Of a DNA stretch of 64,000 nt, positions 3,478-64,000 are shown piece by piece. The translations under genes were made by a program, and so were the position numbers. The DNA is taken from NCBI GenBank assembly GCA_002070185.1, contig MWCT01000002.1, positions 124,001-188,000 on the forward strand, written 5' to 3'. The first letter of the stretch is position 1, and each line of letters starts with the position of its first letter. The stretch comes from a candidate division BRC1 bacterium ADurb.Bin183. Its GTDB lineage: Bacteria > Sumerlaeota > Sumerlaeia > MWCT01. Under the pieces are notes generated by a model, which worked only from the letters and a program-made list of their open reading frames with translations, ran no database searches and had not been told where the DNA came from.

Positions 3478-4666
3478 CGAAACGCTCAAAGAAATGACGC
3501 GCCAAATCATGCCTTGGCTGATTGAGATAAGGCGGGATTTTCATATGCATCCGGAACTGGGCAGAAGGGAATTTCGCACGCAAGAAAAAATTATGCAGTA
3601 TTTGAACGAAATGGGCATCGAGCATTATAAAATCGCCGGGACCGGGTTGGTTGGAATGATAGAGGGCAAAGAAGGCGGGAATGTGGTGGCGCTCCGCGCC
3701 GATATTGACGCCCTGCCGATGCAGGAAAAAAATGAGGTTTCTTATAAATCGCAAAACGACGGCGTGATGCACGCCTGCGGTCACGACGCCCACACGACCA
3801 TCCTTTTAGGAGCCGCAAAAATTCTTAACGGGATGAGAAAACAATTCTGCGGGAAGGTGAAATTATTTTTTCAGCCGGACGAAGAAGGCAGCGGCGGCGC
3901 AGAGGTCATGGTCAAAGAGGGGTGCATGGACAACCCAACAGTTGATTATGTGCTGGGGCTTCATGTAATGGGTTATCTGCAAACGGGGCAAATTGAGATT
4001 CGTTATGGAAAACTCAACGCCTCCGCCGACTCGGTACAAATAATCGTGCGCGGCAAATCGGCGCACGGGGCGTATCCGGAAAAGGGCGCGGACGCTATCG
4101 TTGCGGCGGCGCATATCATCACGGCGCTTCAAACGCTTGTGAGCCGCAACATTTCCCCGCTGAATCCGGTTGCTTTGAGTTTTGGCAAAATATCCGGCGG
4201 AACGGCGGGCAATGCGCTTGCCGAGGAAGTCGCTATCGGCGGCACGCTGCGGACGCTTGACCCTGAGACTCGGCTTTATTGTAAAAACCGTTTGGAGGAG
4301 ATTGCCGAAAAGACCGCCGCCGCATTAGGCGCTTGCGTAGATGTGCGGGTTTATTTTGGATACAAGGCTCTAATCAATAATGACGAGATTGTGAGGGTTA
4401 TTGAGCAAACCGGCGCGGAGATGCTGGGCAAAGAAAATGTTGTTTACAAGGAATTTCCAAGCCTTGGCGCCGAGGATTTTTCATATTTTTTGGATAAGGC
4501 AAAGGGCGCGTTTTATCATCTTGGATGCGGCAATAAATCAAAAAATATAACGGCGATGATTCATAATTCATCGTTCGATATTGACGAGGATTGCCTTGGC
4601 GTGGGCGTTCAAATGCAGGCGGCAAATGCCTTAAAGCTTTTAAGCCGTAAAAAGAATCAGGAATAA
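3470..4666 (+). CDS. M20-family amidohydrolase (N-acyl-amino-acid hydrolase type)
   Basis: A 398-residue metallopeptidase-fold amidohydrolase that should remove an acyl group from an N-acylated amino acid. Visible family features are the metal-binding MHACGHDAHTT, the catalytic acidic stretch FFQPDEEGSGGAE, the dimerisation-domain motif SAHGAYPEKGADAI and the C-terminal metal ligand region GAEDFSYFL. There is no signal peptide. It starts inside the 3' end of alr behind a clear AAGGAGG site and is followed 2 bp later by an ABC exporter. Substrates in this family include hippurate, N-acetyl-diaminopimelate and other N-acyl amino acids. The link to alr makes a cell-wall or D-amino-acid substrate attractive, but that is inference. 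Confidence 0.88.
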   Translation: MNNETLKEMTRQIMPWLIEIRRDFHMHPELGRREFRTQEKIMQYLNEMGIEHYKIAGTGLVGMIEGKEGGNVVALRADIDALPMQEKNEVSYKSQNDGVMHACGHDAHTTILLGAAKILNGMRKQFCGKVKLFFQPDEEGSGGAEVMVKEGCMDNPTVDYVLGLHVMGYLQTGQIEIRYGKLNASADSVQIIVRGKSAHGAYPEKGADAIVAAAHIITALQTLVSRNISPLNPVALSFGKISGGTAGNALAEEVAIGGTLRTLDPETRLYCKNRLEEIAEKTAAALGACVDVRVYFGYKALINNDEIVRVIEQTGAEMLGKENVVYKEFPSLGAEDFSYFLDKAKGAFYHLGCGNKSKNITAMIHNSSFDIDEDCLGVGVQMQAANALKLLSRKKNQE

Positions 4667-30218: not shown

Positions 30219-30375
30219 AGCCGGCTCCTTTTCTTTTTTTTAGATTTTCAAACAAATATGAGCGGGGTTATGTTTATTGTGAAATGACGGTGTCAAGAGC
30301 AACCATTTATAAAATTTTTGTCGGGTTCATTATTCTCCTTGATTCAGAGTTATCAATTGCGCTGTGTATTCTTTC

Positions 30376-31680
30376 ATGAGAATCAATAAATACATTCTTT
30401 CGGCTTTGATGATTTCGATAGCTGCCATCTGCTGCAACTGTTCTCGTCCTGAGAATCTGGCAAAGGGGAAAACAGAAATCGTTTTTTGGACGGGGTGGAC
30501 GGGGCAAGAGATGGATGCGCTTCAAAAGATTATTGACCGCTTTAATGCATCGCAACCGAGCATCCATTGCCGTCTTGTCACAGTCGCGGGCGTTTATCAA
30601 AAGGTGCGCATTGCCTTTGCCGGAGGCGACACGCCCGACCTGATGTCGTGCATCTGGGCGGAGGAACTCGCCAGTTACGCCATCCGCGACGTCCTTGAGC
30701 CGCTCGATTCCTATATCGCCCAATCGGGGCGCAACCTCGCCAAAGAATACATGCCCGGCTTATGGCGCATGTTCCATTTTGACGGCAAGGTTTATGCGTT
30801 GGCGATGACCACGAATGGCTCAGTCTTCTTTTATAACAAAGACATCTTTCAAGAAGTTGGCTGGGGCGCCGACCGCGTCCCCAAAACGCTGGATGAATTC
30901 GAAGAGATTAACGACCGCTGCGTGAAATACAGCAAGGACGGCAACCTTGAGCGTTATGGGACTCTTCCCTACAATGTCATTTTCTGGGGATATGTTTTCG
31001 GCGGGAGCTGGTATGATGAGGCGGCGCGCAAGGTGACGATGAACCGTCCGGAAAATGTGCGGGCGTTGGAATGGATGCAAAAGATTTCGCACAGATATGA
31101 CGTGCGGAAATTGCGCCGGTTTGAAAAATCTTTCGGCGGCTGGATAACCTCCGCCAACTGCCCGTTTTACGTTGGCAAGGCGGCGATATATCATTCAGGC
31201 GAATACATGACGCATCATCTAAAGAAATATGCACCCCAAATAAATTACGGATGGTTTGCCTATCCGAGCCCGCCGGGGGGACGCGCCAACTGCTGCCTTG
31301 TGGGCGGGTCGGTGTTTGCGATTCCTGCGGCGTCAAAGCACAAGGCGGAGGCGTGGGAATTATTGAATTATCTGACGCAGCCGGAGCAGATAAAGGAATT
31401 TTGTCTGGCGCTGCACAACCTGCCGCCGCTGATTGAAGTGGCGAAAGACCCCGCCTTCACAAGCGACCCGGTGTATCGGGATTTGGCGGAGATTATGAGC
31501 GGGGAGAATGTTTTCGGACCGCCGCCGCTGCCTATTTGGGCGCGCTGCATGACGGAGCTCAACCGCGCGGAGGAATATGCGGTTTATGGCGACGGCTCGC
31601 CCCAGCAGCTCCTCGACGATGTTCAGACGCGTATGCAAAAAGAAATAGACCGGCTGTTGGAGCAGAAGAGGGGGAAGTAG
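30376..31680 (+). CDS. Sugar ABC transporter solute-binding lipoprotein (family 1)
   Basis: A 434-residue lipoprotein with a lipobox region AAICCNC near residue 20 and the type-1 solute-binding fold: an early IVFWTGWTGQEMDALQKII, a VPKTLDEFEEINDRC hinge-region motif, GGSVFAIPAASKHKAEAWEL and a C-terminal helical part. These proteins deliver oligosaccharides or sugar derivatives to MalF/MalG-type permeases. Two such permeases are encoded on the minus strand about 11 kb away (42.3-44.1 kb), but the pairing is inference. No ATPase gene is seen. I chose ATG 30376. An in-frame GTG lies at 30364, and neither has a clear ribosome site. Confidence 0.85.
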   Translation: MRINKYILSALMISIAAICCNCSRPENLAKGKTEIVFWTGWTGQEMDALQKIIDRFNASQPSIHCRLVTVAGVYQKVRIAFAGGDTPDLMSCIWAEELASYAIRDVLEPLDSYIAQSGRNLAKEYMPGLWRMFHFDGKVYALAMTTNGSVFFYNKDIFQEVGWGADRVPKTLDEFEEINDRCVKYSKDGNLERYGTLPYNVIFWGYVFGGSWYDEAARKVTMNRPENVRALEWMQKISHRYDVRKLRRFEKSFGGWITSANCPFYVGKAAIYHSGEYMTHHLKKYAPQINYGWFAYPSPPGGRANCCLVGGSVFAIPAASKHKAEAWELLNYLTQPEQIKEFCLALHNLPPLIEVAKDPAFTSDPVYRDLAEIMSGENVFGPPPLPIWARCMTELNRAEEYAVYGDGSPQQLLDDVQTRMQKEIDRLLEQKRGK

Positions 31681-36381: not shown

Positions 36382-36399
36382 ATTATGCGGGGTTGTATT

Positions 36400-37833
36400 A
36401 TGAAAAAAGTTATCATTATATCAATCATTCTATTGATTGCTTTTTGCTCATGGAACGCTTTTGGCATTAATGCGGCGGATGTGCAAAAATCTATTCAGGA
36501 AAAGGGCGAGCAGTGGCTGGCGGGGGATACTGCGGTTTCCAAGTTGACGCCCGAACAGCAGAAGAAACTCGGAGGTGCGCTGCCCGAACCGGCGTCCATT
36601 CTGGAACGTAAAATCAAAGAGGGCGCGAAAAGGCAGCTCAAAGACGTCCGCGCGATACCTGCAAAATGGGATTGGCGCGATAAGGACGGTCAGAATTGGG
36701 TCTCGCCCATTCGGGATCAGGATCCTTACGGGACATGCGCCGCCTTTTCAAGCATTGCCTGCCTTGAGTCTTTGATGAAAATTCAAAGCGGCAATCCCTC
36801 GCTTAACGTGGATTTATCGGAGCGATTCATTTTTGCTTATGGCGGCGGGGATATAAACAAAGGCTGGTGGGCTTCGCAGGCTGGGGATTTTCTCATGACG
36901 GTTGGAACCGTTTCAGAAGTCAATTATCCTTATTCCGCATGGACGGGAGAGATACCTTCGGACGCTCCCACCAATCACATCTTCAATAACAAAAGTTTTT
37001 TTGTCGAGGATTGGATAGCCCTTGCCATGCCCGGCTCTCCGGCAACCGAAGAGCAGATTAAAACAGCCGTAATGGATGGACCTATTATGGCATGGCTGAA
37101 TATTTATGAGGATTTGACGACTTATTCAGGGGGCGTTTACAGCCACATTACCGGCGGTTTTCTGGGCGCGCATTATGTGGCTCTCATCGGCTGGGATGAC
37201 GCCGGGGATTATTGGATTTGCAAGAACAGCTGGGGAACGTGGTGGGGCGAAAGCGGATTTTTGCGCATCAGGAAATCCAACGGCGGCGCAAGCGATTTTT
37301 GCCAATACGCCTATAAATTATTTCCCCGCATATCGGAAGGCATGATGTATTTCAAAGGCAGCGAGGGCGCTTTAGCCATTCCAGACGGGGCATCGCATCT
37401 TATTGATTCTGCGATTGTGCGCGGGTTTGCTCAACCGCAGGATATTACAATTGGATTCCGCGCTATCCATCCCCGCCTAACAGATTTGAAGTTCTGGTTG
37501 CAGAATCCCGCAAGCGGCAGTGTTCTTTTCCTTGATAAAAAAGGCGGGAGCTATCCAAATTTTGAGGGGCTTTTCCTGAATGGCAAATGCTCATGGAGCG
37601 TCAGCGATTTGATTAACATGCGCCAGATGAGCGGCATTGAGTTTGGCTCCTATCGCGGCTGCGCTCGTCCGGATAATAATATTCTATCTTTGACAGCCAA
37701 TTCGGGCGGCTCGTGGTCAATCAAGATTCAGGATGATGTTGCCGGACAATCGGGAAGCCTTTCTTGGTGGGGCGTTTATTTAAGCGCAGAGCCTGCGACG
37801 AATGTGCCTTCATTAAATTGGAATGGTTATTAG
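36400..37833 (+). CDS. Secreted papain-like (C1) cysteine protease with C-terminal P-like domain
   Basis: A 477-residue exported protein (MKKVIIISIILLIAFCSWNAFG signal). A short pro-region is followed by a C1 peptidase domain beginning IPAKWDWRDKDG. The catalytic Cys is in YGTCAAFSSIACLES, the oxyanion Gln in SPIRDQDPYG, the His in GAHYVALIGWDD and the Asn in CKNSWGTWWGESGF. After about residue 325 a beta-sandwich resembling the proprotein-convertase P domain follows (DSAIVRGFAQPQDITIG, PASGSVLFLDKKGG, SWSIKIQDDVAGQSGSLSWW). The active-site set is complete, so an active secreted protease is expected. The start at 36400 was chosen over ATG 36385 because a GGGGTTG site precedes it. Confidence 0.88.
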   Translation: MKKVIIISIILLIAFCSWNAFGINAADVQKSIQEKGEQWLAGDTAVSKLTPEQQKKLGGALPEPASILERKIKEGAKRQLKDVRAIPAKWDWRDKDGQNWVSPIRDQDPYGTCAAFSSIACLESLMKIQSGNPSLNVDLSERFIFAYGGGDINKGWWASQAGDFLMTVGTVSEVNYPYSAWTGEIPSDAPTNHIFNNKSFFVEDWIALAMPGSPATEEQIKTAVMDGPIMAWLNIYEDLTTYSGGVYSHITGGFLGAHYVALIGWDDAGDYWICKNSWGTWWGESGFLRIRKSNGGASDFCQYAYKLFPRISEGMMYFKGSEGALAIPDGASHLIDSAIVRGFAQPQDITIGFRAIHPRLTDLKFWLQNPASGSVLFLDKKGGSYPNFEGLFLNGKCSWSVSDLINMRQMSGIEFGSYRGCARPDNNILSLTANSGGSWSIKIQDDVAGQSGSLSWWGVYLSAEPATNVPSLNWNGY

Positions 37834-37883: not shown

Positions 37884-39071
37884 TTATGGCTCTCGGACAA
37901 GGCGGAATCCGCCTGCTTTATACCATGGCGGATTTTGGAATCGTTCGCCCGGGCGGATATATTGGGATGATGAAATGAAGTTTCCGCCTTTCAGAACTTT
38001 TTCATTTCCGATTTCAGGACCTGCGGGGTTTTTTGAAGTTGTGATATCGGACGCGCCATCGAACCAGTCGCGGCACCATTCCATCACGTTTCCAGCCACG
38101 TCGTAGATTCCGAAGCGATTGGGCGGATATGTCCCAACTGGCATAAGGTTTTCCCACGCCTTTCCGTCGCGGCGTCCAAAATTGGCGCGCCCATCGGGGT
38201 TTTCGTTTCCCCATGGGAACGGCTGGACGACAAGACCTCCGCGCGCCGCCCTCTCCCATTGAGCCTCCGTTGGGAGGAGATATTTTCGTTTTGTGCCTTT
38301 GGAAAGCATCTCGCAAAAGGCGTTTGCGCCGACCCAAGACAAGGGATAAGCTGGTTTATTTTCGCATCCGGGGCGAGGTATGAATTTGCCCTCTTTTTTG
38401 ATAATGGTGGAGTCGTCGAATATTAAAATGAAATCCTTTTTTTCGGGGTCTTTTACTGCATTGAGGAAGATGCAATATTGGCGCGCGGTGACCTCATGTT
38501 TGCCAATCCAATAACCGTCAAGGAAGACAAGGGGGGAGCCGGATGAACCCCAGCGGCTGCCGTATGTGAATTGTCCGGAGTTAATCCAAATCATTTCCAT
38601 ATCCAGCCCGCCCGCCTTTTCCACATAATCTTTGGAGGGGTCAAGATCAGGCGGAAGCGGCTCAGGGGTATTTTTAACCATTGTTTCGCGGGGGCGCGGT
38701 TTTTCGGGCGTCCAGTTTATGATATCGTCATCTGTTCCCGCTATGCGGTCGGGACCTTTAGAAAAGAGGTCAAAGGGTTTATCATGCGCGCCGGGGAATT
38801 GGTAATCGTATTTTTCTCCCCATAAATCAACAGGTTCTTGCGGGAGATAAGGACCTTTCCAAGTTTCGGGGTCAACAGTGATGGGGCGGCGCACAAGGGC
38901 GGCAAGTCCCTGTTGCGTTCCGGGGAAAGTTCCGACATCTTTTTCATATTCAGAGAGGGCTTTTTCAATAGGTTCAAGAAGCCCTGTGCCCTCTTGTGCG
39001 GATAAAAATGGGGCAAACAAGCAAAAAGCCAACGAAAAATGGATGATTTTTTTTATCATAGATAAGAACAT
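37884..39071 (-). CDS. Secreted fusion of a GspG-like pseudopilin domain and a SUMF1 (formylglycine-generating-enzyme-like) domain
   Basis: 395 residues. A normal Sec signal (IIHFSLAFCLFAPFLSAQ) replaces the prepilin leader. Residues about 30-120 match the GspG globular domain: ALSEYEKDVGTFPGTQQGL, WKGPYLPQEP, DLWGEKYDYQFPG, and DLFSKGPDRIAGTDDDIINW with the acidic loop that binds calcium in GspG. From about 155 to the end it is a SUMF1/FGE-sulfatase domain (EMIWINSGQFTYGS, GKHEVTARQYC, PTEAQWERAARGG, GIYDVAGNVMEWCRDW, KVLKGGNF, GFRLVREP). I do not see the paired active-site cysteines of true FGE, so it may be a binding or lectin-like SUMF1 domain. It is divergent from a pseudopilin gene. Confidence 0.85.
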   Translation of the reverse strand: MFLSMIKKIIHFSLAFCLFAPFLSAQEGTGLLEPIEKALSEYEKDVGTFPGTQQGLAALVRRPITVDPETWKGPYLPQEPVDLWGEKYDYQFPGAHDKPFDLFSKGPDRIAGTDDDIINWTPEKPRPRETMVKNTPEPLPPDLDPSKDYVEKAGGLDMEMIWINSGQFTYGSRWGSSGSPLVFLDGYWIGKHEVTARQYCIFLNAVKDPEKKDFILIFDDSTIIKKEGKFIPRPGCENKPAYPLSWVGANAFCEMLSKGTKRKYLLPTEAQWERAARGGLVVQPFPWGNENPDGRANFGRRDGKAWENLMPVGTYPPNRFGIYDVAGNVMEWCRDWFDGASDITTSKNPAGPEIGNEKVLKGGNFISSSQYIRPGERFQNPPWYKAGGFRLVREP

Positions 39072-39177: not shown

Positions 39178-39762
39178 ATGAAAGTAAAATTAGGATTTAC
39201 GCTTATTGAACTCCTTATCGTTGTGGCGATTATCGCCATCCTTGCGGCTATCGCCGTCCCTAACTTTTTGGAGGCGCAGATTCGTTCAAAGGTCTCGCGC
39301 GCCAGAGCGGACATGCGCTCGGTTGCCACAGCGTTGGAATCATATCGCACCGACCACAACGATTATCCATGGATTGAACGATATCCAGGCTATGCCTTGC
39401 CGCGCACCTTGACTACTCCGCAGGCTTATTTGACGTCTATACCTAAAGATAGTTTCGGTTTATCCAAGTCAACGGATTTATACAACGATCCAGCCGAAAC
39501 ATGGAAGACAACTCTGGATTATTTTTATGCAACGAAAAAATATTATGATTTCTATGGTTGGCTCTGGCATGTATATCCGGGCGGCAGCACGGGCAATCCG
39601 GCGGCTTGGGTATTCCAAAGCAAGGGACCCGACCTTTGCTGGGCGCGAAGACCTTCCGATGGGGGCGTGGGCGTGGATGAACTTGATCGTCCGTATACAT
39701 ATCAATACGATCCCACTAACGGCACTGTGAGTCTCGGGAATATTGTGCGTTCTGGTCCTTGA
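39178..39762 (+). CDS. Type II secretion/type IV pilin-like pseudopilin
   Basis: A 194-residue prepilin. The leader MKVKLG is followed by the cleavage/methylation motif FTLIELLIVVAIIAILAAIA with the conserved Glu5, then an amphipathic helix (EAQIRSKVSRARADMRSVAT) and a globular domain with LESYRTDHNDYPW and a C-terminal DELDRPYTYQYDPTNG. The long insert around TTPQAY to GWLWHVYPGG and the FQSKGPDL motif are like the solo GspG-type pseudopilins that occur in many copies in some candidate phyla. It would be processed by a prepilin peptidase and sit in the inner membrane or a pseudopilus. It is divergent from the GspG-SUMF1 fusion, which carries a related globular domain. Confidence 0.9.
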   Translation: MKVKLGFTLIELLIVVAIIAILAAIAVPNFLEAQIRSKVSRARADMRSVATALESYRTDHNDYPWIERYPGYALPRTLTTPQAYLTSIPKDSFGLSKSTDLYNDPAETWKTTLDYFYATKKYYDFYGWLWHVYPGGSTGNPAAWVFQSKGPDLCWARRPSDGGVGVDELDRPYTYQYDPTNGTVSLGNIVRSGP

Positions 39763-39799: not shown

Positions 39800-39933
39800 T
39801 TAATCTTCGATGATTTTTCGGGGGCGCCAATATCATCGGGGAATGTTATTCCAAGTTTTCTTGCCATTGCCGAATTGATGGCTATCTGCGATGAGAACTT
39901 TTGGTTGCGGTCGGCGACGATGTCTAAATTTTG
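39800..39933 (-). pseudogene. Possible C-terminal remnant of an ABC substrate-binding protein
   Basis: An open minus-strand frame overlapping the end of the Cache gene reads NLDIVADRNQKFSSQIAINS, then AMARKLGITFPDDIGAPEKS. The pattern IN..MA+.LGI..P recalls the last 30 residues of TrpX-type (PF04392-like) binding proteins. No start codon, ribosome site or upstream homology in that frame is seen, so if real it is only a fragment. It may be a chance frame in the 161-bp space between converging genes. Confidence 0.2.
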
Positions 39934-41150
39934 AGATAGATGAAATAAACCATGCCGATGAATTTTCCGCCATCTTTAACTGGGACAAAAAAGAATTGTC
40001 CCGTTTTTCCTTCAAGAAGTTGGCGTTCCAGAAATGATTCTTGCTGTGATTCGAGGATTTTCAAAAAAGCGGCGTCCTTTTCGTATGTCCCCGTTCGGAA
40101 ATCATAAAGGGCAAGGCTGTTTTCCTTTGGATATCCGCCGATATTGACGCCTTCGGGGGATATCCATTGAATGGAATATATGCCGTAATGGCGTTTGTGA
40201 AATTCTTTGAAGATTGAGTTTATATTATCATCATTCCGCTCCGACATGTTTTTTATCAGCGTTGCATCTTTGGCTAATTTTCTTAAGGCATCCATGGCTG
40301 GAAGTTCAACGAAAGAGGCTTTTGTTTTTTTATTTGGAGCCGCTCCATCCGCCAGCGCATGTTCCGCGACAAGGCGATATTGTGCGTCATGGATGCCGAA
40401 GGTTGTCCAATAAACGTTTTTATAAACTCTTGTCTGGCTGCTTCTATCATAGTAATTGTATTCGCCTGCGCCGTTTTCCTTTTCAGCGATTTCTTTACCA
40501 AGCGCCATGAGTTCGGGGAACTCCTGATACAATAAATCTGTAAAAAGGTTTCGCCCGATTTCTTCGATATTCTCTTTGAAAATAATCCTGCCATCCTTTT
40601 GCATAACCCATGCTTTCAGGGGAATGCCAGCTGTGGCGGCGGTGATAGCGCGCGAAGTAAGCGCATCGAGCCGCAAAAGGAGACTGACCGAGGCGGTTAT
40701 CTTTTTTTCATCGGAAAAAATGGGATGGGCAAAACTGACGGCATCGAATCCCTCCGCGCTTCGGAAGACTTCGCTTAATACAGGCGCGCCCTTTGCGCGG
40801 AGTCGAATCACATGGGGCTGCGAGCTGATATCAACCCCCTCATGGGATTTGAAGTCTTTCGGCTCAATCATCGTCATGATGCCGTTGATATCCACAAAGG
40901 CGCAGTCATAAACGGCGGGATCTTTTTTGCAAAAGTCGTTAAGAATCTGTCTTATATCTTTTTCTTTCAAATCGGCGGCGGAAAGGTTCCGGGCGGCTTC
41001 AGCAAGATATTTGTCAATAGATTCGAGGTTGCTGGAGATATCCGCTTTCATCTTTGAAAGAGCCGGCGGTTGATTAATCGGCGTTTCATCCGCATTTATA
41101 AGGTTGATTGCCATCAAAGAAAACAAGATGACAAACAGTTTCTTTTTCAT
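39924..41150 (-). CDS. Secreted Cache-like sensor-domain protein without a signalling domain
   Basis: A 408-residue exported protein (MKKKLFVILFSLMAINLINA signal). The body has the layout of periplasmic Cache (PDC) sensors: a helical start with ALSKMKADISSNLESIDKYL, strands YDCAFVDINGIMTMIEP and FAHPIFSDEKKITASVSLLL, and LKAWVMQKDGRIIFKENIEEIG. A second similar half follows (HYGIYSIQWISPEGVNIGGYP to GQFFFVPVKDGGKFIGMVYFI), so it is probably two Cache domains in tandem. Normally such domains are followed by a membrane span and a kinase or methyl-accepting domain. Here the protein ends, so it would be a free periplasmic or surface ligand-binder. It lies 15 bp upstream-facing of the glycosidase-like gene on the same strand. 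Confidence 0.7.
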   Translation of the reverse strand: MKKKLFVILFSLMAINLINADETPINQPPALSKMKADISSNLESIDKYLAEAARNLSAADLKEKDIRQILNDFCKKDPAVYDCAFVDINGIMTMIEPKDFKSHEGVDISSQPHVIRLRAKGAPVLSEVFRSAEGFDAVSFAHPIFSDEKKITASVSLLLRLDALTSRAITAATAGIPLKAWVMQKDGRIIFKENIEEIGRNLFTDLLYQEFPELMALGKEIAEKENGAGEYNYYDRSSQTRVYKNVYWTTFGIHDAQYRLVAEHALADGAAPNKKTKASFVELPAMDALRKLAKDATLIKNMSERNDDNINSIFKEFHKRHYGIYSIQWISPEGVNIGGYPKENSLALYDFRTGTYEKDAAFLKILESQQESFLERQLLEGKTGQFFFVPVKDGGKFIGMVYFIYLKI

Positions 41151-41165: not shown

Positions 41166-42314
41166 TCATTTGTTGGAATAATCGCCGAGTGAAAACTCAT
41201 AAAATATGATGGAATTAAAACCGCCCTCTCGCGCCTCTTTGCCAAATTGGCGCATCCACGCGAGGTTGCGGCGCGATGGTTTGAGCGAGCCAATATCCGC
41301 ATGAGCCTTTATGACTATATTGGGCTGTATCGCGCGGGAACGAGCCACATACGCCTCAGCATAGGCACGGACAAATTCCGGCTGGAGGTCGGGCTGAGTC
41401 CAATCCTGCCAAGCATCCTCAATAATCAAAACATCCGGTTTGAGGAATTTGAGTGCGGCGTCCAAGTCTTGCGCCTGATACTCGCGGGATTTTTCCGGCG
41501 CCACCGTGCAATCTGAAAGATGCATGTGAATCAGGCGGATGCCCGGGCGGACTTTAAGCGCTTCATCGTAAAGCCGTTTGGAAAATTGCAGAATCGAATT
41601 GACGCGGAAGTCCTGCCATTTGTGATAAATCTGGTAGTTGGTTGTATTGAGCGTTTCCGGGGTGTTCAAAAAATCAATCGGATCCGCGCCTGTTTGCTCC
41701 TTAAAAAGGCGCGTGCAGTTGTCGCAAATGCAGGCGTATTTCCCTCGATTGGGATTTTCCGCATAGGGTCCTCCCCAGATCTCGAACCATGGCTCGGCGA
41801 GTTCAATGGCATCATAGGGAACGGCGCCCAATATTCGCCGAACCTCGGAGCAGGCGTGTTCAGTAAAAGCCTCTGAGTTAGGGCAGAGATAGACGCGCCA
41901 GTCATATCGGCTGGAACCGTCAAGCATCTTCTGCCGCCAGTCCGGATGGAGATCATAAGCCGCAAAATCCGTTGTCGGGTAGAGCCTCAGCACACAAGAC
42001 ATGCCTTTTTCATGAAAGGTTTTCACCATTAGGTTCTGCTGCTGCAGCGGGATGTTGGCGACGATGATGATGTGGACGGCGTTGAAGCCGAGGCTTTTAA
42101 TTTCCTCCGCCCAGTCTTCCCACGATTTTTTTTTGTAGAATTCGAACGCCGGATCCACCGCGATGGAATCGCTTGTCAGCCGCTGCATGGCGACCGTTGA
42201 AGAGTTGCCAGTTCCCATCATGATTTCCCCTCCCATATTCAACATAAGTTCATTGGCGCAGGCAGCCCCCGCGCTTAAAAAGAGAATGATTATAAATCTC
42301 AATCGGCGCGTCAT
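41166..42314 (-). CDS. Secreted TIM-barrel glycosidase-like protein
   Basis: A 382-residue exported protein (RRLRFIIILFLSAGAACANE signal). The body looks like a clan GH-A-style barrel: WAEEIKSLGFNAVHIIIV, YDAIELAEPWFEIWGG with a possible acid/base Glu, CICDNCTRLFKEQTG as in several large TIM-barrel glycosidases, IRLIHMHLSDC, and late strands VLIIEDAWQDW and FNSIIFYEFSLGDYS. The GH family is not assignable by eye. ATG 42314 overlaps the permease stop (ATGA) and is preceded by GTGAAAGG, so it is translationally coupled to the sugar permeases. A longer frame upstream lies inside the permease gene. A role in processing the imported glycan is inferred. Confidence 0.75.
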   Translation of the reverse strand: MTRRLRFIIILFLSAGAACANELMLNMGGEIMMGTGNSSTVAMQRLTSDSIAVDPAFEFYKKKSWEDWAEEIKSLGFNAVHIIIVANIPLQQQNLMVKTFHEKGMSCVLRLYPTTDFAAYDLHPDWRQKMLDGSSRYDWRVYLCPNSEAFTEHACSEVRRILGAVPYDAIELAEPWFEIWGGPYAENPNRGKYACICDNCTRLFKEQTGADPIDFLNTPETLNTTNYQIYHKWQDFRVNSILQFSKRLYDEALKVRPGIRLIHMHLSDCTVAPEKSREYQAQDLDAALKFLKPDVLIIEDAWQDWTQPDLQPEFVRAYAEAYVARSRAIQPNIVIKAHADIGSLKPSRRNLAWMRQFGKEAREGGFNSIIFYEFSLGDYSNK

Positions 42315-43141
42315 CCTTTCACCCCGCCGAGCGTGATGCCTTTCACGAATGTTTTTTGGGTGAGGAAAAACAGGACAATCACAGGAAGAGTCATCATCGT
42401 GGATAGCGCCATGAGTTGCGCCCATTCGGCATCGTGCTGACCCAGAAATTGCTGCAACCCCACCGCAAGGGTGTATTTGGAATTATCCGTCAGATAAATC
42501 AGCGGACCCATAAAATCGTTCCAGTTGCCTAAAAAAGTAAAGAGCGCCACCGTCAGAAGCGCCGGTTTTGCCAGCGGAAGGATAATCTTTGCGTAGATGC
42601 CTAATTCCGAACAGCCGTCAATAACCGCCGCTTCGCTTAACTCCTGCGGGATGCCCATAAAGAATTGTCGAAGAAGAAAGATGAAAAACGCCGAGCCGAA
42701 AAATGAGGGAACAATCAGCGGGAGAAATGTTCCAATCCAGCCCAGCTCGCGGAATATTCTGAAAACGGGCAAGAGCGTAACCTGTCCGGATAGCATCATC
42801 GTTGCAAGCAGAATCAAGAAAAAGAAGTCGCGCCCGAACCAACGGATGCGACCGAAGCCGTAAGCAACCAGACTGCACGAAAGCGCCGCGCCAATCACGT
42901 TGCTGACGCAAATCATAAGCGTGTTAGCCAGATAGCGCAAGAAGGGGATATACCGAATCGCCTTGCTGTAATTCTGCCACTTAAACATTTGCGGCAGCCA
43001 CCGCACCTGCGCCGTGAAAATCTCGCTGTCGCTTTTAAGGGATGTCATCACCATCCAATAAAACGGCACAAAAAAAAGCGCGCCGAAAAATATCAACGCT
43101 CCGTGTCCAGCGATATGATATAATATGTTTTCCTTTTTCAT
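42311..43141 (-). CDS. Sugar ABC transporter permease (MalG type)
   Basis: A 276-residue inner-membrane protein with six predicted spans. The cytoplasmic EAA loop (ELSEAAVIDGCSELGIYAKI, then ILPLAKPAL) docks to the ATPase, and the early FVPFYWMVMTSLKSDSEIF is typical of MalG-type subunits. It follows the MalF-type subunit by 24 bp and overlaps the glycosidase gene by 4 bp. No ATPase is encoded nearby. A shared MsmK/UgpC-like ATPase elsewhere is likely from what is known of these systems. The solute-binding lipoprotein at 30.4 kb is a possible partner. Confidence 0.92.
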   Translation of the reverse strand: MKKENILYHIAGHGALIFFGALFFVPFYWMVMTSLKSDSEIFTAQVRWLPQMFKWQNYSKAIRYIPFLRYLANTLMICVSNVIGAALSCSLVAYGFGRIRWFGRDFFFLILLATMMLSGQVTLLPVFRIFRELGWIGTFLPLIVPSFFGSAFFIFLLRQFFMGIPQELSEAAVIDGCSELGIYAKIILPLAKPALLTVALFTFLGNWNDFMGPLIYLTDNSKYTLAVGLQQFLGQHDAEWAQLMALSTMMTLPVIVLFFLTQKTFVKGITLGGVKG

Positions 43142-43165
43142 CGGTCTTTATCGCCCATAAGATGA

Positions 43166-44107
43166 TTATCTGCTCCCCTCGCCTTCATAATACACCCAGC
43201 GGCGGGAGGTTTTCATCACAAAAATCGTTGCCGCAAGAATCAACAAAAATAACAGCCATGCCATCGCCGAAGCATATCCCAGTTGAAAATCCAAAAAAGC
43301 CCTGTTGAAAAGATGCAGGGCATAAAAAAGCGTGGCATCTTGCGGTCCGCCCTGCGTCATCACAAACGCCTGCGTGAAATATTGGAAATAGCCGATAATC
43401 CCCATGATGAGGTTGAAAAGTAAAATGGGGCTTATCATCGGGAGTGTGACATGCCGGAACTTTGTGAAAATCCCCGCGCCGTCCACTTCCGCCGCTTCAT
43501 AGAGCTGGGGCGGAACTTCCTGCAATCCCGCCAAAAAGATAAGCATCCCGCCGCCCGCCTGCCACAATCCCATCAGTATCAATGCGGGTTTTGCCAGTTT
43601 TGGGTCAACCAGCCAGCCGACCATGTCAATCCCGAAAAGGCGCAAGGCGTGATTAATCAAACCATATTCGGGATTCAGCAGCCACATCCAAAGGACGCTC
43701 ACAGCAATCACAGGCGCAATAGATGGGAGGTAGAGAATTGTTCGATAGATGGATTGTCCGCGCACCTTCAAATCGAGCAGAATCGCAAGAAAAAGAGAAA
43801 AAGCCAGCGTAATCGGCATAGCAATCAGAACCATGTAAAAGGTGTTCACAAGCGCCCGCCAGAAGAGCGGGTCTTCCAAAAGCATAACTCTATAATTATC
43901 AACTCCCGCCCAAACAGGCGGCGAAAAGCCGTCGAATCGGCAGAAGCTCCAGTAAAATGAGGCGCAAATCGGATATAGGGTAAAGACAATCAAACCAATA
44001 AGCCATGGGGCAATAAAGAGCAAGCCGTTGCGCAGATTCCGCCGTTCGACCGGCGAGCGCGCCGTCTCCTGCCAATGTGCCAAAATAGAATATTGAGTTT
44101 TTTTCAT
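43166..44107 (-). CDS. Sugar ABC transporter permease (MalF type)
   Basis: A 313-residue inner-membrane subunit with six spans. It starts with a cytoplasmic tail, then GLLFIAPWLIGLIVFTLYPI typical of MalF/UgpA-type permeases. The EAA loop is ELYEAAEVDGAGIFTKFRHV, TLPMISPIL. It is the first gene of a permease-permease-glycosidase unit on the minus strand. Upstream lies a 418-bp spacer with an inverted repeat (44231-44256) that may carry the control region. Confidence 0.92.
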   Translation of the reverse strand: MKKTQYSILAHWQETARSPVERRNLRNGLLFIAPWLIGLIVFTLYPICASFYWSFCRFDGFSPPVWAGVDNYRVMLLEDPLFWRALVNTFYMVLIAMPITLAFSLFLAILLDLKVRGQSIYRTILYLPSIAPVIAVSVLWMWLLNPEYGLINHALRLFGIDMVGWLVDPKLAKPALILMGLWQAGGGMLIFLAGLQEVPPQLYEAAEVDGAGIFTKFRHVTLPMISPILLFNLIMGIIGYFQYFTQAFVMTQGGPQDATLFYALHLFNRAFLDFQLGYASAMAWLLFLLILAATIFVMKTSRRWVYYEGEGSR

Positions 44108-58117: not shown

Positions 58118-60040
58118 ATGGCGCATCTAAAAAAATGCCTCGGCATTGAATTGGGCTCCGATTCCATCAAAGTAGCGGAAGCTGCCGTTGAAAAAGACGG
58201 CATCCGCCTTTTAAAAACCGCGAGCGCTCCGTTGGATATTCCCGCAGACGCCTCTCGCAATGACAAGCACAAAATCACAGTTAATATTTTAAAAGGACTT
58301 TTGAAAAGCAAAAAAATAACCACCAAAGAAGCTGTTTTTTGTATTGCGGGGCAAACCGTTTTTGTCCGCCGATTCAAACTCCCTAAAACAACTCCGGAAC
58401 GTCTTGCGCGTATTATTAATTATGAAGCCCGTCAACAGATTCCGTTTCCGATTGAAAAAACGATGCTGGAGTATCAGGTTTACGAGGAACCGGAAAGTCA
58501 GGACGTGGACGTCTTCCTTGTTGCGCTTAAAAAAGATGTTCTTTATGATTTTATGGATATTGTGGATAGAACCGGTCTTAAGCCGATGGGGGTGAACATC
58601 AGCAATCTGGCGTTATTCAACTTCCATGCCCTGGACGGCTGTCCCGCAGAGCTCTTTGCCAACCGTTTCAAATCATCCAAAAAGAAAATCTCTCTCGATA
58701 TCAAACTGCCGCCCTTTTTTGAAAAACTTAAAAAAATCAAAAAGAAAAAAGGCGCCGAACAAGCGGAAGAAAAAGGGGATGCAGAGTCCGAATTTGCCGC
58801 CCCGGAGATGGTGCACGCTTATTTGAACATCGGCGCAACTATGACCGATTTGACCATCGGTTCATCCGGCGCAAAACCCATGCTCGGTTTCACCAGAAGC
58901 ATCCCAGTAGCTGGCAACTCCATCACACAGGCAATCTTGGAGCAGAGCGAAGGCGTGAAGGACTTCAAAGAGGCGGAGCAGATTAAAAGAGAAAAAACGA
59001 CGATTCTCTCTATGAGCGCCGATATTTCACCGTCTATTAATGAACAGGCATCCGAAGCGGCAACGGGCGTTGTGGACCGTCTCATTGCCGAGCTGCGCCG
59101 TTCCATTGATTTCTATATCTCCCAGCCGGACGGCATGGCGGTTGATGAAATTATCCTTTCCGGCGGGCAGTCCCTTTTGCCCAACCTTGCCAGTTATATT
59201 GAGGAAAAGTTAAACACTACGGTAAAAGTATATGAAACCCCCGCCGGAACCAATATCAAAGGAATTGAGGAGGCTGGAAAGGAACTCAGCCTTTACCCGA
59301 TCCCCATCGGTCTTGCGCTTTCGGGACTTGGTCAGGCGGCGCTCCAAATAGATTTCCTCCCAACGGATCGAAAAGTTGCCATCAAATTCAAGAGGAAAAA
59401 AGGGTTTGTCGCCCTTTTGGCTGCTATGGTGGCGGGGACAATTCTTTTGGGCACGATGAGCGGTAATCATTATATTGCCATTTACAAAGATCAGACCGGC
59501 ATATATCAGGATGAATACATCCGCAACTCACCCATGATTAAAAGGATTGAGAGCGTTACCAAAATAGAAGAGGATTTAAAGACAAAATTCGATAATCTTG
59601 CCAAAGGTTTGACAACAGAAAGGGCTTATCCCCTCTTTAGGTGGTTAGAAATACTCGAAGCCAAACCGGCGGATGTTCTTGTTTCATCTCTTAAAATCTT
59701 CCCCGATGGGAGAGTGGTGGTTGAGGGTTATACAGAAGACCAAAACTCCGCGGTAAAGTTTTCGGAGCATCTAAACGAGGAGCTTGGCACCAAGCAGCAA
59801 AATCTTGAAGACCGCGGCGCAAGGTTGGACGATATCCGTTCCGAATTCAATGACCTTTTCAAAAAAGATGTGTATAAGTTTTCCATCAGCATGAAATACA
59901 AAAATCGCTTTTCCCGCGTGCAAGAGGCGCAGACAGCCGCCCCCACAACACAGCAACAGCAAAGAGGTCCCGTCCCTTCGGGACCTGTGCCTATGCCGGG
60001 AAGAAGCGGAAGAATCGCATTGCCTGAAGGTGAAATATAA
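58118..60040 (+). CDS. pilM: Fused PilM-PilN-like type IV pilus/secretion assembly protein
   Basis: 640 residues. The first about 430 form a PilM-type actin-like ATPase: CLGIELGSDSIKVAEA, TPERLARIINYEARQQIPFP, VDVFLVALKKDVLYDFMDIV, LNIGATMTDLTI and IILSGGQSLLPNLASYIEE, with a Lys/Glu-rich cytoplasmic insert around 200-235. Then QIDFLPTDRKVAIKF matches the PilN start, followed by one membrane span (FVALLAAMVAGTILLGTM), a coiled-coil region and a ferredoxin-like periplasmic domain (VLVSSLKIFPDGRVVVEGYT). PilM and PilN are usually two proteins bound through the PilN N-terminal peptide. Here they are covalently joined. A Pro/Gln tail ends it. First gene of a pilus or secretion operon. Confidence 0.87.
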   Translation: MAHLKKCLGIELGSDSIKVAEAAVEKDGIRLLKTASAPLDIPADASRNDKHKITVNILKGLLKSKKITTKEAVFCIAGQTVFVRRFKLPKTTPERLARIINYEARQQIPFPIEKTMLEYQVYEEPESQDVDVFLVALKKDVLYDFMDIVDRTGLKPMGVNISNLALFNFHALDGCPAELFANRFKSSKKKISLDIKLPPFFEKLKKIKKKKGAEQAEEKGDAESEFAAPEMVHAYLNIGATMTDLTIGSSGAKPMLGFTRSIPVAGNSITQAILEQSEGVKDFKEAEQIKREKTTILSMSADISPSINEQASEAATGVVDRLIAELRRSIDFYISQPDGMAVDEIILSGGQSLLPNLASYIEEKLNTTVKVYETPAGTNIKGIEEAGKELSLYPIPIGLALSGLGQAALQIDFLPTDRKVAIKFKRKKGFVALLAAMVAGTILLGTMSGNHYIAIYKDQTGIYQDEYIRNSPMIKRIESVTKIEEDLKTKFDNLAKGLTTERAYPLFRWLEILEAKPADVLVSSLKIFPDGRVVVEGYTEDQNSAVKFSEHLNEELGTKQQNLEDRGARLDDIRSEFNDLFKKDVYKFSISMKYKNRFSRVQEAQTAAPTTQQQQRGPVPSGPVPMPGRSGRIALPEGEI

Positions 60041-60043
60041 TAG

Positions 60044-60625
60044 ATGGACGTTAAAGAACAACTGGGTATCCTTTGGATTAAGATTAAGGCGAACGTTGAC
60101 CGGACGGCTTTTGTTGTTTTCCTAATTCTACTCATCGCCATGGTTGGCATTTACGGCTATGAGATGTCCAAACAGCCGCCTGAAATGCCGGACATCAGCA
60201 CCGGCAAATTTACCCAGCTGATCCCGAATGAAAATTATGATAAAGTCATGAACTATATCCGTAGCGAAACGGAGTTAGATAAAAACGAAAAAATTCGCAA
60301 AATCCGCGACTTTAATATTTTTGACTACAAATACGTGCGCGACCGCGATGAATTGCAAAAAGAAGCTGATAAAAAATATGAGAGAGCGGCGCAGCTGTTT
60401 AGCGAAAACAAGATTGATGATTCGGAAAAGATTTTGAAAGAAATACTCCTGACATGGCCGACGCATATAAGCGCCAAGGAGTTGCTGGATAAGATTGTCA
60501 AGGCAAAGATGCCAACACCCACTCCCAAACCGACTGCACCGGCTGTTCCTCCGATGGAGGGCGCTGTTGGGTTGGAACCCACTCCGGCAGCAGGGCAGCA
60601 ACCGGGCGAGCCTCCTCTAATTTAG
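60044..60625 (+). CDS. Single-span membrane protein with TPR-like periplasmic part (pilus/secretion operon)
   Basis: A 193-residue protein with a short cytoplasmic N-terminus, one membrane span (FVVFLILLIAMVGIYGYE), then a charged helical region including a TPR-like pair (KYERAAQLFSENKIDDSEKI, LKEILLTWPTHISAKELLDK) and a Pro/Thr-rich tail. It starts 3 bp after the pilM-pilN stop. The position is where PilO or PilP normally lies, but the sequence does not clearly match either, so it may replace them or be a lineage-specific component. A 112-bp spacer precedes the secretin-like gene. Confidence 0.75.
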   Translation: MDVKEQLGILWIKIKANVDRTAFVVFLILLIAMVGIYGYEMSKQPPEMPDISTGKFTQLIPNENYDKVMNYIRSETELDKNEKIRKIRDFNIFDYKYVRDRDELQKEADKKYERAAQLFSENKIDDSEKILKEILLTWPTHISAKELLDKIVKAKMPTPTPKPTAPAVPPMEGAVGLEPTPAAGQQPGEPPLI

Positions 60626-60737
60626 GTTTCGTGGGCGGGTTTTTATGGCTTATTTTACTTGACACACAAATGCTCCCTGTTAGGTTTCTTAAATAATGGT
60701 AGGGCAATCAATCCTTGAGATTAAAGGAGAGTCTAAA

Positions 60738-63700
60738 GTGCATATGATGAACAAGAAGGTATTTTCGTGGAAAACCGTCCTCGTACTCATCTCCCTCCTC
60801 GCCGCGCTGGCACTTGCAGCCTCAGCGAAGGATTCCAAGAGGCTTGCGCAAGAGAACCCTGCGCCCTCTCCCTACGCTAAGGAAAATACCGCGGAAATCG
60901 AAAGCCATTTAACTAAGGCTAAAAATTATTTTGAAAAGGCGGAATTCAGCTATGCTGAAATGTTCTATGACATGGCTCTCCGTTTGGACAAGGACAATGC
61001 CGCCATCAAAGCCAGAATTGAAGATACCCGCCAGTATCGCGCCCGTCAAAAAGAGCTCTTGGATGCCGCCCCAAAAGGCGACAAGAGAAACGAGTATCTG
61101 AACACGAAATATAAAACCGCAGTGCAGCTTTTCAAGGACAAGAAATACCCAGAGGCTTATAAAGAATTCGAAGAAATCTGGCTGATTGTCCCCAATGGCG
61201 AATTCAAGGCAACCAAAAAATACATGTCCAATACACGCGAAAAACTTGATCAAGCAGAAGCAAAACCCGCCGCGCCTAAAACCCCTGCCGTTCCCACAGA
61301 CAAAGAAGCAGCCAAGGCTCAAAAAGAAAAAATCAACGCGCTCATCAAAGAAAGCGAAGCCCTCCTGAAAAAAGATAATTTTGACGCCGCAGCCGCCAAA
61401 AATGCCGAGGCGCTTGCCATTGATAAAGACAATAAAGACGCCCTTAAATTAAAGGCTAATATCGAAAAGAAAAAAGCAAACGCCCTCGCCAAAGCCGAAG
61501 CCCAGCAAAAGAAAATTGCAGAAGTGGAGAAAAAACGCGAGGAAGAGGCAGCGAGACAAAAGGCGCTGGCTGAGCAAAAACAAAAAGAGGCGGACCTGAA
61601 AAAAATCAAAGAGGCGGAAGAAAAAGAAAAAAAGGAAGCCGAAAGGCTTAGAAAATCCGCCGCAGAGCGCGCCGCCAAACTGAAAGAAAAAGAAGAAGAG
61701 GCTAAAAAAACTGCCGAAAAACCGACGCCCGCCCAGGTTGAGGAAACAAAGCAAAAAGCGCAAAAAGAAGCCGAAGAGGCTCGTTTGAAATCAGAACAAG
61801 AGGCGCAACAGAAAAAGGCTGCCGATGAACTGAAAAAGAAAGAAGAAGACGCGCGCCTGAAAGCTGAAAAAGAAAAAAAAGAAATCGAAGAAAAGTTAAA
61901 ACTTGAACAACAGAAAAAGCAGGAAGCCGAAGCCGCTCTCAAAAAAGCAGAAGAGTTAAAAAAGCAAGAAGCGGAAAAAATCAAAAAGGAAGCAGAAACC
62001 AAAACCGCAGAGCAACTGAAGAAAGAAAAAGAAGCGGAAGAGGCTCGTTTAAAAGCGGAAAAAGAAAAGAAAGACGCAGAGGCTAAAGCAGCCGACGATC
62101 AGAAAAAGAAGGAAGAAGAAGCCCGCATCAAAGCCGAAAAAGAAAAGGCTGATAAAGAAAAAAAGGATGCCGAAGCCAAAAAGATTGCCGAAGAACAGCG
62201 CAAAAAAGATGAAGAAAATCAGATTAAAAAACTTCAGGAAGAAAAACTAAATAAAGCCAAAGCGCTTGTCGCCGACGCTCAGAAGGCTCTCGACAAAGGC
62301 AATCTGGATGAAGCCATTAAAAAGGCTGATGAAGCCCTTAAAATTGAACCACTTTTTGCAGAGGCAACAACAGTAAAAAATGCCGCTCTAGAGAAGAAAA
62401 AGAAAATCGAGGAAGCAGACCAGGCAAAGAAAGCCAAAGAGCTCGCTGAGAAAACTAAAAAAGAGCAAATTTCGCGCGCCCTTGCTGACGGCAATGCATT
62501 ATTCAACAATAATAAGTATGATGATTCCACCACAAAATTTCAGGAAGTTATACGCCTTGACCCCGCTAATTCCGAAGCCAAAAAGATGCTGGATAAACTC
62601 GCCCAGATAAAGGCGCAGGAAAAGCAGAAAACCATTCAGGGGTTAATCCTTGACGGCAAATCCTTCTTGGCTCAAAACAGGCTCGATGATTCCCGCAAAA
62701 AATTTGAGGAAGTCCTCAAATACGATGTGAATAACAGGGAAGCTCAAACAGGTCTTCAGGAAATCTCCCGCCGATGGGCTGATGCGGCGCGCCGCTTGGA
62801 AGAAGAGGCGAAAGCTAAAGTTGCCGCCGATGCTCAAAAAGCCTTTGATGAAGGCTTGAAGGCATACGAGAAAAAAGATATTGAAACAGCCATAGCCTGC
62901 TGGCAGGAAGCCCTGAAAATTAAACCCGACCATCTTAAAGCCAAAACCTATCTGGAAGAAACGCAGGGCGAATATGATGCTTTCCTTAAAAGCAAAGCCG
63001 AAAAAGACGCTTTTGATAAAAAGGAAGCCGATGCTCAGGCGAAAATGAAAACCCTTATCAGTGTTTCCACAACGGTTCCCCACACGCCTCTCATCAGCTT
63101 TCTGGATAGCCTTTCTATCATTAGCGGGATTAATTTTTACGTGACCAGCGGCGTGGAAGCAACAGTGGACGCAAAATTTGTTGATACGCCCCTGAATGAG
63201 GTTTTGGATACGCTGCTGAATCCTATCGGGCTCAAGTGGAGCCGTAAATCCGGTTCGGATGTGGTGACTATTACCCCGGACCTTCAAACAAAGATTTTTA
63301 ACCTTTCAAGCGCCGAAGCCGCCAAAGTCAAAGCCATCATCGAAAGCGGCGACATTCACCGCTTGCTTTGGGGCAAGGACGGAACGCCGAAACTTAAAGG
63401 CGTGGATTTAACGCTTGATGACCGCGAAGGCATTCTTGTCAGCGTTGATTCGGCGCCGAATATCCAGAAATTGGAAGCCTTTTTGCATGACCTGCGGACA
63501 CAGGCTCCACCGGCTCTTGAATACCGCACCTATCGTTTGCGCGAAGGCGAAGGTCCCAAAGTCAAATCCCTTTTAGAGCAGATTCTCAAAGCAGATGACA
63601 GCGCCCCCTATTCGCAGGATAGAAAGCTGCTCCTTGATGACCGCGACTTGATTGTCAAGGATGTGGCGGAGAATATCAAAAAGGTCGAGCAGATTCTGCA

Positions 63701-64000
63701 GGAGAAGGATTTTATCGAAAAACTCCGCAGCGATACTTTGCAGCTGCGCACTTGGCCTCTTGCTCCCCGCGAGGCGTTGAAGAACAATCCGGATCAGCTG
63801 CGCCAGTTTGGCGACTGGGTTGTACAGGTTATCAGCGTTATGCTATATGCCAAAAGCACCCGTTCTAAGGCGGAGGCGGAAGGGCGCCGGCTCTGGTGGG
63901 ATCAGCCGAATCTTCTTTTGACGGTTGTTGACTACCCCGATAATATCCTCGCCGTGGATGATTTTATCAACTCGCTGCCGCAGTTGGAGGTCAAAACAAA
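60738..64000 (+). CDS. Secretin-like protein with a very long charged coiled-coil/TPR N-terminal region (partial)
   Basis: Open to the right edge: 1087 complete codons are visible. It starts at GTG 60738 with AAAGGAGA seven bases upstream; ATGs at 60744 and 60747 are too far from that site. A Sec signal (KTVLVLISLLAALALAASA) is followed by a helical pair (KNYFEKAEFSYAEMFYDMAL). A Lys/Glu/Ala-rich coiled coil of about 320 residues (about 210-510) comes next, then TPR-like repeats (KALDKGNLDEAIKKADEALK, GNALFNNNKYDDSTTKFQEV, GLKAYEKKDIETAIACWQEA). From about 770 a secretin STN/N0-like domain appears (SGINFYVTSGVEATVDAKFV, PLNEVLDTLLNPIGLKW), then N1-type modules (YRTYRLREGEGPKVKSLLEQ). The membrane-channel part should lie beyond the window. 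It probably forms the outer-membrane pore of the pilM-pilN system. Confidence 0.85.
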   Translation, partial: MHMMNKKVFSWKTVLVLISLLAALALAASAKDSKRLAQENPAPSPYAKENTAEIESHLTKAKNYFEKAEFSYAEMFYDMALRLDKDNAAIKARIEDTRQYRARQKELLDAAPKGDKRNEYLNTKYKTAVQLFKDKKYPEAYKEFEEIWLIVPNGEFKATKKYMSNTREKLDQAEAKPAAPKTPAVPTDKEAAKAQKEKINALIKESEALLKKDNFDAAAAKNAEALAIDKDNKDALKLKANIEKKKANALAKAEAQQKKIAEVEKKREEEAARQKALAEQKQKEADLKKIKEAEEKEKKEAERLRKSAAERAAKLKEKEEEAKKTAEKPTPAQVEETKQKAQKEAEEARLKSEQEAQQKKAADELKKKEEDARLKAEKEKKEIEEKLKLEQQKKQEAEAALKKAEELKKQEAEKIKKEAETKTAEQLKKEKEAEEARLKAEKEKKDAEAKAADDQKKKEEEARIKAEKEKADKEKKDAEAKKIAEEQRKKDEENQIKKLQEEKLNKAKALVADAQKALDKGNLDEAIKKADEALKIEPLFAEATTVKNAALEKKKKIEEADQAKKAKELAEKTKKEQISRALADGNALFNNNKYDDSTTKFQEVIRLDPANSEAKKMLDKLAQIKAQEKQKTIQGLILDGKSFLAQNRLDDSRKKFEEVLKYDVNNREAQTGLQEISRRWADAARRLEEEAKAKVAADAQKAFDEGLKAYEKKDIETAIACWQEALKIKPDHLKAKTYLEETQGEYDAFLKSKAEKDAFDKKEADAQAKMKTLISVSTTVPHTPLISFLDSLSIISGINFYVTSGVEATVDAKFVDTPLNEVLDTLLNPIGLKWSRKSGSDVVTITPDLQTKIFNLSSAEAAKVKAIIESGDIHRLLWGKDGTPKLKGVDLTLDDREGILVSVDSAPNIQKLEAFLHDLRTQAPPALEYRTYRLREGEGPKVKSLLEQILKADDSAPYSQDRKLLLDDRDLIVKDVAENIKKVEQILQEKDFIEKLRSDTLQLRTWPLAPREALKNNPDQLRQFGDWVVQVISVMLYAKSTRSKAEAEGRRLWWDQPNLLLTVVDYPDNILAVDDFINSLPQLEVKT

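Follow-up and report, generated by a model that had tools for sequence, protein, structure and literature searches.

The open reading frame at positions 37884-39071 of the window (the whole 64,000-nucleotide stretch of DNA that was analysed) encoded a protein of new architecture built from known domains: the globular head of the pseudopilin GspG, devoid of the prepilin leader and polymerising helix, is joined behind an ordinary signal peptide to a domain of the FGE/SUMF1 type. The fusion is real, conserved, and rare, and is one case of a wider reuse of pseudopilin heads without the helix. With somewhat more confidence than doubt, we regard it as a binding protein with two domains that is exported, does not polymerise, and belongs to a locus for glycan uptake. 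The features of the ORF were as follows.

37884..39071, minus strand: whole ORF of 395 amino acids (signal peptide, GspG head, linker, and FGE/SUMF1 domain), with orthologues in two other genomes
38997..39071, minus strand: signal peptide, residues 1-25, without a prepilin leader (judged by eye)
38712..38981, minus strand: leaderless GspG (T2SSG) head, residues 31-120 (Pfam and solved GspG heads)
38712..38762, minus strand: acidic loop SKGPDRIAGTDDDIINW, residues 104-120 (putative GspG calcium loop, by homology)
38598..38711, minus strand: linker, residues 121-158, of which residues 121-150 are rich in proline and evolve fast
37893..38597, minus strand: FGE/SUMF1-like domain, residues 159-393 (Pfam, PDB alignment, and AlphaFold)
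37956..37973, minus strand: site of the FGE cysteine pair, with S367 and I372 in place of the cysteines (alignment to solved FGE)

The coordinates and description of this ORF in an earlier note, made from the sequence, were right; a second in-frame ATG was located at codon 5. The window's own genome (G000; 3.4 Mb) belongs to Sumerlaeota, and full-length orthologues with 58% identity were found in the other two members of the same family: L009/L051 in G015 and L010/L050 in G014. Since these orthologues occur in two separate MAGs, a mis-joined assembly, which the earlier note had named as a potential flaw, was excluded by the in-frame fusion in three genomes from separate assemblies. The fusion was detected in 3 of the 40 Sumerlaeota genomes searched. 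On named contigs, 540 stretches encoded a relative, with the same two orthologues as the top matches, and among the 79 loci kept from the matches listed, a head profile found these two and no others; in 288 genomes of Verrucomicrobiota (the phylum of G041), no place contained both domains at E 1e-25. The previous claim of an unusual architecture needs refinement: the exact fusion is rare, whereas GspG heads without a leader recur as a module joined to many different partners. No account of leaderless GspG heads or of a GspG-FGE fusion was found in the open-licence literature; other literature may hold one.

Pfam T2SSG matched residues 32-120 (E 1.6e-23; 83.2 bits against a cut-off of 21; positions 18-108 of the 108 in the profile) and the acidic loop GPDRIAGTDDDIINW was found, in agreement with the globular GspG pattern, including this loop, originally read at residues 30-120. 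The score with the NCBIfam GspG model (TIGR01710) was 77.3 bits, under the equivalog cut-off of 88.85. Identity to GspG was 47-52% in the best matches, and a profile built from the fused heads of all three genomes matched solved GspG heads with E 2.3e-19 (PDB 2kep); the likeness of the head is, therefore, far beyond chance. A globular head with the GPY...D.WG...GPD...DDI pattern is shared with GspG/PulG, the major pseudopilin of the T2SS; on the other hand, the fusion differs from GspG/PulG in the loss of the prepilin leader and polymerising helix, in the Sec signal that it bears instead, and in its position outside a T2SS operon. The T2SSG profile began at positions 1-7 in the strongest prepilin-type GspGs of Sumerlaeota (among the matches listed) versus position 18 in the fusion, and because of this late start the polymerising helix is considered to be missing from the fused head. 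The N_methyl model of Pfam gave no match in the fusion ORF. The N-terminus (KK, a hydrophobic run, and SAQ, with GFxxxE absent) was judged by eye to be an ordinary signal peptide, and plain signal peptides were read in the same manner in all three fusion orthologues. Based on the profile start, the lack of an N_methyl match, and the signal read by eye, the proposal that a Sec signal had replaced the prepilin leader and helix was borne out, and with it that of a soluble pseudopilin head joined to an FGE-like domain behind this signal.

The acidic loop of GspG binds calcium. D108, D115, D116, I117, N119, and W120 were invariant across the three orthologues; the loop of the fused head would, by homology, be the GspG calcium loop, and the head is probably calcium-stabilised. 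The positions that we take to be the inter-subunit salt-bridge residues of PulG varied among the fusion orthologues and orphan GspGs. The structure prediction recommended in the earlier note (AlphaFold, whole protein, 34 rows) succeeded in part: the FGE domain took the FGE fold, with most of its ten-residue blocks having pLDDT >90, but the head mostly had pLDDT <50, and the mean pLDDT of the head alone (three-row alignment) was 40. Since the head was below 50 almost throughout both runs, a GspG-like fold is predicted for it from homology.

The pN and pS values among the three orthologues (Nei-Gojobori counts) indicated that the head (pN, 0.235-0.269) and the FGE domain (0.232-0.273) are equally constrained and under purifying selection, and that the linker is not: pN in residues 121-150 was 0.43-0.51, about twice the value of the head or FGE domain. 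The pS values between orthologues (0.63-0.90) were near saturation. The low pN of the head, equal to that of the FGE domain, shows that the head is kept by selection. An assembly artefact or a decaying gene can, thus, be set aside for all practical purposes, refuted as it is by in-frame orthologues from three separate assemblies and by purifying selection.

The remainder of the protein had been assigned as a whole to SUMF1; this domain is present, but it starts near residue 159 and is preceded by a linker of ~38 residues. Pfam FGE-sulfatase matched residues 159-393 (E 1.3e-43; 149.9 bits against a cut-off of 23.3), and the top PDB matches were formylglycine-generating enzymes, with TvpA, PvdO, and PorK ranking lower. 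S367 and I372 are aligned with the two catalytic cysteines of FGE; across the three orthologues, the residues at these positions were S/S/S and I/I/V. Sulfatase (PF00884) gave no match at E 1e-3 in the window's own genome (94.9% complete), and 10 of the 14 controls matched; FGE-type matches in the same genome numbered eight. Because both catalytic cysteines are replaced and PF00884 is unmatched, the protein is very unlikely to be a sulfatase activator, and this function was rejected; the FGE-like domain may instead bind a ligand or have some unrelated enzymatic activity. Several proteins other than FGEs have the same fold (Treponema TvpA, PvdO, and PorK/GldK). The fusion, which is without the FGE cysteine pair, differs from them in bearing a pseudopilin head, and scored far under the cut-offs of NCBIfam PvdO (64 versus 500 bits) and GldK (84.5 versus 350 bits); PvdO and EgtB both matched below cut-off. 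A variable protein of a diversity-generating retroelement (DGR) was also rejected: blastn of 37884-38400 against the window returned itself and a 20-base match (E 0.094), with no template-like repeat.

The genes that accompany the fusion were as follows.

39178..39762, plus strand: divergent prepilin-type pseudopilin, adjoining the fusion in two of three genomes
36385..37833, plus strand: papain-type (C1) peptidase with a signal peptide, convergent neighbour in two of three genomes
41166..42425, minus strand: GHL6-like glycosidase homologue, in the cluster in three of three genomes
42311..44107, minus strand: two permeases of a sugar-type ABC importer, with orthologues in three of three genomes (named by eye)
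30364..31677, plus strand: SBP_bac_1 solute-binding protein, with orthologues in the same cluster of the two other genomes

The solute-binding protein, two permeases, GHL6-like protein, and fusion were found in one region in all three genomes; in the window, the SBP_bac_1 gene is located ~6 kb beyond the C1 peptidase, apart from the permeases. The GHL6 scores of Pfam (18.9 and 25.0) were under the cut-off of 35. Relatives of the GHL6-like protein (37-40%) were also present in three genomes of another family (f13), in which no fusion was found, and, therefore, this gene does not need the fusion. The divergent pseudopilin (76% identical between G000 and G015), the C1 peptidase, and an FAD oxidoreductase were near the fusion in G000 and G015. 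In G014, a CBM9-type protein occupies the place of the pseudopilin upstream of the fusion, and the contig stops 271 bases past the fusion. A tie to the neighbouring pseudopilin, as had been suggested, is unsupported so far: the two genes are adjacent in G000 and G015, but not in G014, and an obligate pairing is weakened for this reason. The gene beside the fusion (39927-41150) encodes an exported protein with a double Cache and without an evident output domain; it had no counterpart on the G015 and G014 contigs compared. A PilM-like gene (PilM_2) followed by two more ORFs at 58118-63998 of the window likely belongs to a type IV pilus cluster.

Since the helix and prepilin cleavage site are both absent, the head would be unable to enter a filament by itself, and may be a small soluble recognition or spacer module, probably stabilised by calcium. 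The SUMF1 domain would bind a ligand in the periplasm or at the cell surface, most plausibly a glycan, judging from the gene neighbourhood and fold family alone. Docking of the fusion to the pseudopilus is possible but unsupported, and an alternative to the binding protein, of which we are rather doubtful, is that the fusion acts as an adaptor, as the earlier note had proposed, or as a cargo tag: the head would dock on GspG-type pseudopilins or periplasmic parts of the T2SS, and the FGE domain would be carried or displayed. Both a T2SS-like operon and an orphan GspG (L003) are present in the same genome, the head is constrained as well as close to GspG (47-52%), and the prepilin adjoining the fusion in two of three genomes would be compatible with a role at the filament. 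However, the fusion is outside the T2SS operon and has no adjacent pseudopilin in G014, some leaderless heads elsewhere are attached to membrane anchors whose tails are zinc-ribbon-like or cytoplasmic (by eye), and do not resemble cargo, and pseudopilins assemble mainly via the N-terminal helix, which is missing here.

The FGE-like domain may also be an enzyme similar to PvdO, CalU17, or ToxD, which share the FGE fold but differ in chemistry, with the head as a mere stabiliser. All three were among the PDB matches, and NCBIfam PvdO and EgtB were matched below cut-off; nevertheless, every equivalog cut-off was missed by far, as already described for PvdO, and this explanation is considered unlikely. 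An inhibitor or decoy of pseudopilus assembly, also raised in the earlier note, is very unlikely: although capping of head-head contacts by a head without the helix is conceivable, no result was in favour, such contacts are probably minor, and the wide occurrence of leaderless heads with unrelated partners is not suggestive of an inhibitor.

The head was probably acquired from a paralogous orphan GspG, or from a near relative of such a paralogue, as one of several captures of pseudopilin heads. The fused heads of the three genomes formed one clade (100/99) in a tree of 36 rows, within orphan GspG-type prepilins (96/92), including L003; a tree of 74 rows placed this clade as sister to the same orphan GspGs (99/89). 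The GspG of the T2SS operon (L005) was apart from the fused heads in both trees. L142, L143, L146, L147, L148, L150, L151, L154, L156, and L160 were left out of the former tree, and L029, L142, L143, L146, L147, and L156 out of the latter; matches of <55 profile positions (<65 for the Sumerlaeota set) were also left out of the tree sampling. The leaderless state required eight changes on the 74-row tree (93 columns; L164 and L166 not counted), of which strongly supported branches force two, and a single origin of the 19 leaderless heads from Sumerlaeota was neither demonstrated nor rejected (p-AU 0.054). The T2SS-like operon, with its own GspG (L005), is located on another contig (C9) of the same genome; models of E, F, G, J, K, and D matched, most of them below the curated cut-offs and GspG above. 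The orphan GspG-type prepilin L003/L042 (9410-9850 of G000:C19) is encoded right after dnaA, and related orphans occur across Sumerlaeota.

Leaderless heads were also found with other partners, and such heads passed the Pfam cut-off in further proteins. A non-random sample from Sumerlaeota consisted of 33 T2SSG places, selected from the matches listed mainly for a late profile start or long frame. Twelve of them were exported proteins of the FecR type that end in a leaderless head (L040 and L129-L139, the last cut by a contig end), from 12 genomes including the window's own. The FecR score of Pfam was above the cut-off in L040 and below it in L129 (18.8 versus 24), and the other members were assigned by resemblance. 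As in the fusion, a leaderless GspG head is part of an exported protein; these proteins differ in the C-terminal position of the head, the FecR-like partner, and a separate head clade (100/99). Proteins of this type occur in at least 12 of 40 Sumerlaeota genomes, and the copy of the window's own genome, L040, is at 2316-3710 of G000:C4. Four of the 33 places contained only a signal peptide or lipobox and a head (L140, L149, L152, and L153), six had other leaderless layouts (L141, L144, L145, L155, L156, and L158), and the remaining 11 were prepilin-type (ten) or cut off (L159). Among 32 chosen places in Verrucomicrobiota, 18 were leaderless and 14 were prepilin-type, as judged by motif and reading (L204 and similar cases included). 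Some membrane-anchored leaderless heads carried zinc-ribbon-like or cytoplasmic tails (by eye). Lipoprotein-like and DUF3352-like layouts were observed in Aminicenantes (L164, L166, and L169), with the DUF3352 score of L164 being under the cut-off.

GspG is a filament subunit, the function of which depends on the helix. Severed GspG heads seem to be reusable: in Sumerlaeota, Verrucomicrobiota, and Aminicenantes, they were found combined with FecR, ankyrin, or glutathione-peroxidase domains or with membrane anchors. The helixless head is under selection and occurs in several unrelated protein contexts, which suggests that the head by itself is useful. Only as a speculation, and one that is more likely wrong than right, helixless heads in these three phyla may be a module that can be transferred between exported proteins of unrelated kinds (SUMF1, FecR, ankyrin, glutathione-peroxidase, and membrane-anchored tails) and that links them to a type II/type IV filament or its periplasmic machinery. 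Leaderless heads also provide a natural experiment on recognition by pseudopilin heads, and a warning for annotation: a "type II secretion system protein GspG" named from the T2SSG domain alone may not be a pseudopilin.

Several of the individual layouts deserve mention. L163 (1453-2214), from Opitutia (Verrucomicrobiota), consisted of a signal peptide, ankyrin repeats (with Pfam support), and a leaderless GspG head, and L179 (655-1674), from the phylum of G041, of a membrane anchor, a leaderless GspG head, and a glutathione-peroxidase domain (Pfam support). L155 and L156 (Sumerlaeota) and L164 and L166 (Aminicenantes) were exported DUF3352-like proteins, the terminal pilin-like domain of which was whole and retained a hydrophobic helix without a prepilin leader. 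L145 was a long protein in which a membrane-peptidase-like part with HExxH, which we take by eye to be M56-like, was combined with two pilin-like heads.
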